Shown: in pieces, positions 47,479 to 48,373 of the stretch
Layout: the number at the start of each line of letters is the position of its first letter
Position numbering within the stretch: position 1 is the first letter of the stretch
From: a virus
Length of the DNA: 48,680 bases
Strand: one strand, 5' to 3'
Virus record (IMG/VR): IMGVR_UViG_3300025647_000003
Span: 1 to 48,680 of that record
The notes under the pieces: model-generated
Database searches by the model: none
Told to the model about the DNA's origin: nothing
The model's input: only the letters and a program-made list of their open reading frames with translations
Program-made: the position numbers and the translations under genes

Positions 47479-47588
47479 CAGCGGAAGAGGTTTTTGAGGA
47501 AGAATATGGTAAAGATTATTTAGTAATAGTTGTTAATACTAAAAATAAACCTTCTCCCACTCCTACTACCGAGGGGTCGATAGTTTAA
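47475..47588 (+). pseudogene. Truncated paralogue of the DUF551 gene (37 aa)
   Basis: The frame starts MTAEEVFEEEYGKDYLVIVV, a clear relative of the N-terminus of the protein at 44223-44525 (MKAEEYFEKEYGKDHLVMVA), then runs into a Pro/Thr-rich tail that lies inside the stem of the following terminator. The DUF551 domain is missing. It is either a degraded copy or a short gene kept for its own role. Confidence 0.55.
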
Positions 47589-47605
47589 AGGGGTGGGAGG
47601 GTTTT
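47554..47605 (+). terminator. Terminator after the truncated DUF551 relative
   Basis: CTCCCACTCC and GGGGTGGGAG form a 10-bp stem (one G-U pair), with a 26-base loop that holds the stop codon of the preceding ORF, followed by GGTTTT. Confidence 0.75.
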
Positions 47606-48159: not shown

Positions 48160-48193
48160 TTTAGTAATTATTAAACAAAATTACTTATCTTTG
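48160..48193 (+). promoter_or_regulatory. Promoter of the tRNA-like gene
   Basis: TTTAGTAATTA as a weak -33 region, then TATCTTTG. The message would start within a few bases of the tRNA 5' end, so little 5' trimming is needed. Confidence 0.68.
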
Positions 48194-48204
48194 AAATAGT
48201 AAAC

Positions 48205-48342
48205 GGCAAGTTGGCGGAATTGGTAGACGCTAAGATAAAAGAGAAACGGCAGAGCCTTTGTATTTTAAGGTGTTCGGAGTAGTGTCGAGCAGGGTAACAT
48301 AGATAAGCTCACTGCATACAGGTTCGAATCCTGTACTTGCCA
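48205..48342 (+). tRNA. tRNA-Leu-like gene with oversized middle
   Basis: Acceptor GGCAAGT/ACTTGCC (7 bp, discriminator A), D arm GCG-GAATTGGTAGA-CGC and T arm ACAGG-TTCGAAT-CCTGT are all canonical for tRNA-Leu. Between the D and T arms lie 87 bases where 30-35 are expected. I cannot place a normal anticodon stem-loop; the middle instead forms GTAGT-(GTC)-GAGC/GCTCACTGC and a CCTT/AAGG hairpin. It is too short for a group I intron. It may be a tRNA with a small insertion, a degenerate tRNA, or a tRNA-like RNA. Confidence 0.6.
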
Positions 48343-48373
48343 CAAAAAAATAAACATTTATTAAAATTAAGTT

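Follow-up and report, generated by a model that had tools for sequence, protein, structure and literature searches.

What kind of RNA is made from a gene that has the acceptor, D and T arms of a tRNA-Leu, but an 87-nt middle in place of its anticodon and variable arms, is the question raised by positions 48205–48342 (138 nt) of the window, a term used here for the whole stretch of 48,680 bases that was analyzed, which is an entire IMG/VR record. The window encodes a tailed phage: its genes include those for portal, terminase, tape-measure, primase/helicase and NinG, and relatives of these are found in phages of Cellulophaga, other Flavobacteriia or Bacteroides. Sequence comparison gives good support to the gene being one member of a widespread, very large phage RNA family built on a tRNA-Leu shell, a membership that the original prediction overlooked.

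Anatomy of the element

The tRNA-Leu-like gene with perfect acceptor, D and T arms had been placed at the correct coordinates (acceptor 7/7, T arm 5/5; Table 1), and the length given for its middle is confirmed, compared with about 31–36 nt in canonical tRNA-Leu genes. The D arm, with G10C11G12 opposite C23G24C25, is identical to that of real tRNA-Leu genes. Set against a canonical tRNA-Leu, the acceptor, the Leu D arm, the T arm and A73 are all in place, whereas an anticodon arm with U33 and a Leu anticodon is lacking: a search of the whole 87-nt middle found no stem of 5 bp that carries a 7-nt loop with U33, and the earlier statement that no T33-anticodon-purine loop on a 5-bp stem is visible there is borne out along its full length. 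ARAGORN reported no gene for the window element with introns either allowed or disallowed, and its sole prediction at half-threshold, a meaningless "Thr(ggt)" split by a 56-nt intron, is an artefact. The covariance check for a standard tRNA ended at 14 bits with the Rfam tRNA model, against a gathering score of 29, and Rfam found no intron, tmRNA or GOLLD match in the element.

The promoter that had been ascribed to the gene stands in part, with a −7 box of the Bacteroidota type upstream of nt 1, but a clear −33 element was not seen. Upstream of family members in general, the −7 motif is enriched (7.8% versus 2.1% in shuffles), and no enrichment was found there for sigma-70 −10 boxes. The window also contains, some 600 bases 5' of the element (47552–47604), a terminator-like hairpin, formed by the inverted repeat CTCCCAC...GTGGGAG followed by TTTT.

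Table 1. Coordinates of the features of the element and its upstream box in the window.
Feature	Position	Strand	Basis or remark
−7 box TATCTTTG, Bacteroidota type TAnnTTTG	48186..48193	+	12–19 nt 5' of nt 1
Acceptor stem 5' strand GGCAAGU	48205..48211	+	7/7 pairs with 48335–48341
U8, G9, tRNA-Leu-type D arm UGGCGGAAUUGGUAGACGC	48212..48230	+	A14, A15, G18, G19 present
Middle in place of anticodon arm and variable arm	48231..48317	+	87 nt
Candidate stem a, 5' strand UAAGAUAAAAG, anticodon-stem position	48231..48241	+	Pairs with 48256–48267, one bulged base
Candidate stem b, 5' strand GCAGAGC, inside the loop of stem a	48249..48255	+	Fold and shuffle comparison
Candidate stem a, 3' strand CUUUGUAUUUUA	48256..48267	+	Shuffle comparison
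Predicted hairpin c, UGUUCGG / UCGAGCA	48271..48291	+	Minimum-free-energy fold
Candidate stem b, 3' strand GCUC-AC-UGC	48307..48315	+	2 nt from the T stem, likewise in relatives
A47 U48; U48 partners A15	48316..48317	+	Sequence
T arm ACAGG-UUCGAAU-CCUGU	48318..48334	+	5/5 pairs; loop TTCGAAT
Acceptor 3' strand ACUUGCC, discriminator A73 (48342), C74 (48343)	48335..48343	+	Sequence

Family size, sequence signature and copy number

A pattern in which 70–100 nt separate the Leu D arm from the T loop is present in at least 119 stretches of IMG/VR, and gaps of 101–131 and 50–69 nt likewise give at least 119–120 stretches per length bin, although some of the matches at the gap extremes are clustered tRNA-Leu genes of the ordinary kind. 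In 257 Gb of cellular genomes (genome_contigs), a comparable pattern yields nine matches. Conservation of the D and T arms is not evidence alone, since the search patterns prescribed the D arm and some of the T arm; acceptor pairing, nt 26, 47–51, 73 and 74, and the leader were free of them. Among the matches listed in the first IMG/VR scan, where the acceptor stem lay outside the pattern, it pairs 7/7 in 102 of 119. An assembly error in this stretch, which the original prediction had named as a caveat, is excluded because hundreds of independent examples of the family exist, and unannotated members were found in the cultured Flavobacterium phage FL-1 (middle of 124 nt) and Bacteroides phage BS-TP2 (directly upstream of NinG). 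The window element itself lacks a close homolog: its own ends have no match in IMG/VR, and no copy is carried by the nearest relatives of the phage by replication genes (L002–L089). No conserved neighbor gene was found across the loci: the commonest neighbors, in at most 11 of 183 loci, have general phage functions, a DnaB-like helicase among them. Rfam applied to 16 loci returned only generic tRNA matches and one GOLLD.

The positions at which members resemble each other are also those at which they depart from real tRNA-Leu genes. The T stem is ACAGG or GCAGG (RCAGG) in 71 of 107 elements that between them have 94 different acceptors, versus 3 of 66 canonical tRNA-Leu genes from the same loci; AU at 47–48 is found in about half of the members versus 3/66, and nt 26 is U or A in members and mostly G in canonical tRNA-Leu genes. 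Among the listed elements with a middle of at least 47 nt, U48 is present in 216 and A73 in 173 of 219. The window element carries all the family signatures, namely ACAGG, A47U48, U26, A73, C74, the absence of an anticodon arm and a middle longer than 32 nt. Since RCAGG, AU at 47–48 and U or A at 26 are common to members and rare in canonical tRNA-Leu, the comparison argues for a single RNA lineage rather than scattered, repeated decay of host tRNA-Leu genes.

The acceptor AGTCAGG/CCTGACT is common to many phages, in which 218 unique elements of this type were collected from 109 loci, with 98 different 19-nt D-arm stretches; the RCAGG T stem recurs in 75 of 87 of them. As many as 12–13 copies of the 3' end occur in single phage records, the reversed control pattern giving no match, and the copies within a record have the same ends and unrelated middles and lie on the same strand, among short genes and real tRNA genes. 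Homologous middles recur across different phages, and nearly all middles are otherwise unique. One subfamily of the AGTCAGG type (L183:711, L253:7580, L277:3226, L369:3062 and L425:128) has a distinct, better conserved body, GTAATGAGGGACGG...CCC.AATCC...GGTT, in which an A precedes the T stem. Contigs of Chlorobiaceae (L443) and Desulfobulbus (L445) hold elements that are homologous to each other, with a hairpin that varies in step (GGCAGT..ACTGCC versus GGCCGT..ACGGCC).

Several other tRNA-like elements were encountered in the searches. In phages of Leuconostoc (L452, ~2497–2607) and Lactiplantibacillus (L454, ~1064–1170), related elements have an altered T loop, TGCAAAT, and no visible anticodon arm, and they are unannotated although neighboring tRNA genes are annotated. 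Long-middle tRNA-like genes with generic elongator D arms, TAGCTCAGT, and tails CCCT or ACCT occur in another phage group (L245:53–1604, L223:7682). They may form a second family unconnected with tRNA-Leu, but one or more of the seemingly long elements there look like adjoining tRNAs read together. The match in Hymenobacter sp. YC55 (L444) was excluded from the family; it is a single Leu-like, tRNA-like piece with an unpaired acceptor, in a tRNA-like cluster flanked by genes for RtcB ligase and a phrog_850 RNA-binding protein, an arrangement (L444:618–6748) that resembles an RNA-repair operon.

Maturation, leucine identity and the structured middle

Selection on the tRNA-Leu shell and its leader is evident at the level of the sequences. 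In the AGTCAGG-type leaders, U−1 is present in about 84% and A−4 in 75%, the real tRNAs of these contigs having 71% and 62%, respectively, and C74 is kept in 214 of 218 elements, as in the real tRNAs there. From these leaders and the retained C74, RNase P cleavage and CCA addition of the family RNAs are likely, and can be inferred with good support; a contact of pre-tRNA residue −1 with A248 in the RNA of RNase P has been proposed (PMC10465520).

The determinants of leucylation in Escherichia coli are the discriminator A73, the A15-U48 pair, G18G19 and A20a, while the anticodon and the variable arm hold none, variants devoid of both arms being active, and the anticodon arm is required for editing and dispensable for charging (PMC9976931). 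The family RNAs retain these features and are probably charged with leucine as well, because recognition by the host leucyl-tRNA synthetase (LeuRS) depends on the elbow and A73 rather than on the anticodon. Of 115 AGTCAGG-type elements outside the search pattern, 80 have A15-U48, versus about one third of the non-Leu tRNAs on the same contigs. A73 occurs in about 80–85% of members versus 66/66 real tRNA-Leu genes, and about 11% of the AGTCAGG-type elements carry G73, an antideterminant for LeuRS; as A73 stays below 100% and the D arms vary, some members may not be Leu acceptors.

The middles were compared with shuffles in a non-redundant set of 194, in a scan in which stem a starts 0–6 nt past C25, at the anticodon-stem position, and the 3' strand of stem b ends 1–3 nt before the T stem, at the variable-arm position. 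The crossed order a-b-a'-b', a pseudoknot, is favored (mean z −0.72 ± 0.09, n = 194; 24% at p ≤ 0.05), and the nested order of two hairpins is favored less (mean z −0.39 ± 0.08, n = 194). Covariation, in small subfamilies of three or four sequences each, agrees with both stems: three pairs of stem b are changed on both sides in L122/L139/L159/L137, with 0 in every slid control, two pairs of stem a in L135/L190/L333/L350, and one further compensatory pair is seen in L188/L260/L416. An H-type pseudoknot that links the position of the anticodon stem to that of the variable arm is therefore often to be expected from the sequences, but is not universal, since a nested order seems to hold for a few families, L389/L411/L433 among them. 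For the window element itself, the predicted pseudoknot of stems a and b is marginal (p about 0.05 against shuffles). The suggestion of an abnormally long variable arm holds for the 3' strand of stem b, which lies where the 3' strand of a variable arm would be, but its 5' partner falls in the loop of the stem at the anticodon position, which makes a pseudoknot of it. In the L122, L139 and L159 alignment (A2, columns 63–68), the apical loop is palindromic in both of its versions, TGGCCA and TGATCA, and could form loop-loop dimers.

Possible functions and known systems

In the mechanism envisaged, RNase P and the 3'-end machinery would process the primary transcript, which would receive CCA like any tRNA, the host LeuRS would charge the matured RNA with leucine, and the product would remain as a stable tRNA mimic, unable to decode because the anticodon is absent. 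More speculatively, this mimic, charged or uncharged, might occupy or feed a host tRNA-handling enzyme, the likeliest roles being a decoy against defense or the retuning of LeuRS or EF-Tu. A non-decoding, probably leucylated mimic on a tRNA-Leu shell, acting on such an enzyme, is thus the preferred reading, held with even weight for and against, and a decoy or anti-defense role is the first choice within it because the copies multiply and the middles diversify. Of the tRNA-like decoy RNA that had been put forward among other possibilities, the tRNA-like half is supported by the family and the anatomy, and the decoy half is what we infer. In a broader and more tentative form, phages could use the host-matured tRNA-Leu shell as the chassis of a large, fast-diversifying arsenal of non-decoding, structured RNAs, as many as a dozen per genome, that neutralizes tRNA-targeting or other host defenses.

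The main rival to the decoy, and one from which the evidence does not separate it well, treats the shell as a means of maturation and stability for a variable cargo, each middle being a different effector and the whole an RNA arsenal. This is doubtful but still a serious possibility, and the same doubt attaches to the effectors that may be imagined, which could, for instance, imitate an antitoxin RNA of the host or inhibit one defense enzyme. Constant ends with unrelated middles in one genome, in up to 13 copies, and the recurrence of homologous middles in different phages would be expected of it, and the pseudoknot topology resembles that of type III antitoxins (PMC5772629); yet almost every middle is unique, which is a poor fit to sequence-specific targets, and the Leu-type A15-U48 and A73 are not predicted. 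As for ToxI-like features, no tandem repeats of the middle were seen, and a search of the phage records for ToxN gave no match, as did its control.

The position of the elements between short same-strand genes and their RNase P-type leaders could instead indicate mRNA punctuation, in which the tRNA-like fold marks the sites where RNase P and a 3' nuclease cut between phage transcripts. This explanation, together with its corollary that removal of the anticodon avoids the release of a mis-decoding tRNA, is unlikely, as it fails to predict the Leu identity nucleotides, the structured middles and their covariation, and a minority of elements, the window element included, have their own −7 box directly upstream. 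The retention of LeuRS determinants with the loss of decoding would also suit a charged, translation-exempt tRNA feeding leucine to a non-ribosomal transferase, but this is quite improbable: a Leu/Phe-tRNA transferase gene was found in none of 27 phage records (controls positive), although a host transferase could serve, and there is no conserved enzyme neighbor.

Least of all can a tRNA-Leu gene with a short removed intron or insertion, or a decayed pseudogene, be credited, which is highly improbable despite the roughly 50 nt of excess length and the perfect outer arms. The removal of an insertion by an unknown process, as once suggested for the window element, finds no support because relatives whose middles are of canonical length (33–36 nt; L147:829, L277:3383, L118:1695, L440:3) still lack the arm and have neither room for an intron nor conserved exons to rejoin, a canonical anticodon arm being present in only 3 of 218 AGTCAGG-type elements and in 0 of 18 of those of canonical length; the window element, for its part, offers no exon solution in its 87-nt middle and no Rfam intron match, and the intron-containing tRNA was rejected. 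Decay, in turn, would disrupt the pairing of the acceptor and T stems, yet this is complete (7/7 and 5/5), and decay leaves aside the common signatures of members that are missing from real tRNA-Leu. The tRNA-Leu(UAA) genes with a group I intron likewise combine tRNA-Leu outer arms with extra length, but the excess in the family (0–100 nt) is too short for a group I core and there are no anticodon-stem exons.

Other known RNAs share single traits with the family. tmRNA has a tRNA-like end and a pseudoknot-rich part in the place of the anticodon arm. The phage RNAs have a comparable end and often a predicted pseudoknot, but tmRNA was rejected on negative ARAGORN and Rfam results, the lack of an mRNA-like tag frame, the length of about 140 nt and the Leu-type rather than Ala-type character; SmpB, found in only 3 of 27 phage records, has no link to the family. 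Chen 2014 reportedly described Y RNAs in bacteria and phages. The Y RNA YrlA, partner of Ro60/Rsr, is also a non-coding RNA that mimics tRNA, and was rejected as well: 28 of 30 phage records, among them the window, FL-1 and BS-TP2, lack the Ro60 (TROVE) gene, and the ends are a 7-bp acceptor with A73-C74, with no long Ro-binding stem. GOLLD is, like the family, a phage RNA found near tRNA genes, but it exceeds 400 nt, has a different fold and is absent from the window; an IMG/VR contig with the Leu-like pattern carries a GOLLD RNA among at least nine tRNA genes (L220:455–917). The pseudo-tRNA tRNA-Other of Bacillus cereus is tRNA-shaped and non-translational and has a cellular effect, as proposed for the phage RNAs, but is a single host gene at a genomic island, whereas the phage family is multi-copy (PMC3399842). 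The closest parallel in anatomy is that of minimal E. coli tRNA-Leu constructs (Larkin 2002), which, to the extent that they are summarized in PMC9976931, have the same acceptor, D and T arms, A73 and elbow and are charged by LeuRS; these, however, are laboratory-made, while the phage RNAs are natural and a structured domain replaces the lost arms. The phage family is apparently undescribed, a search of the open-licence literature having returned no account of one like it.

Codon supply is the usual explanation for tRNA genes in phages. In the present family, hundreds of phage RNAs keep the maturation features and the probable charging features of tRNA-Leu and exchange the anticodon for a structured domain, and most of them escape annotation programs, which wrongly report some others as tRNAs. 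Charging of these RNAs would mean that phages maintain a pool of leucyl-tRNA with no part in decoding; a decoy role would represent a new layer of the conflict between phage and host. With copies in the cultured phages FL-1 and BS-TP2, the question is now open to experiment.
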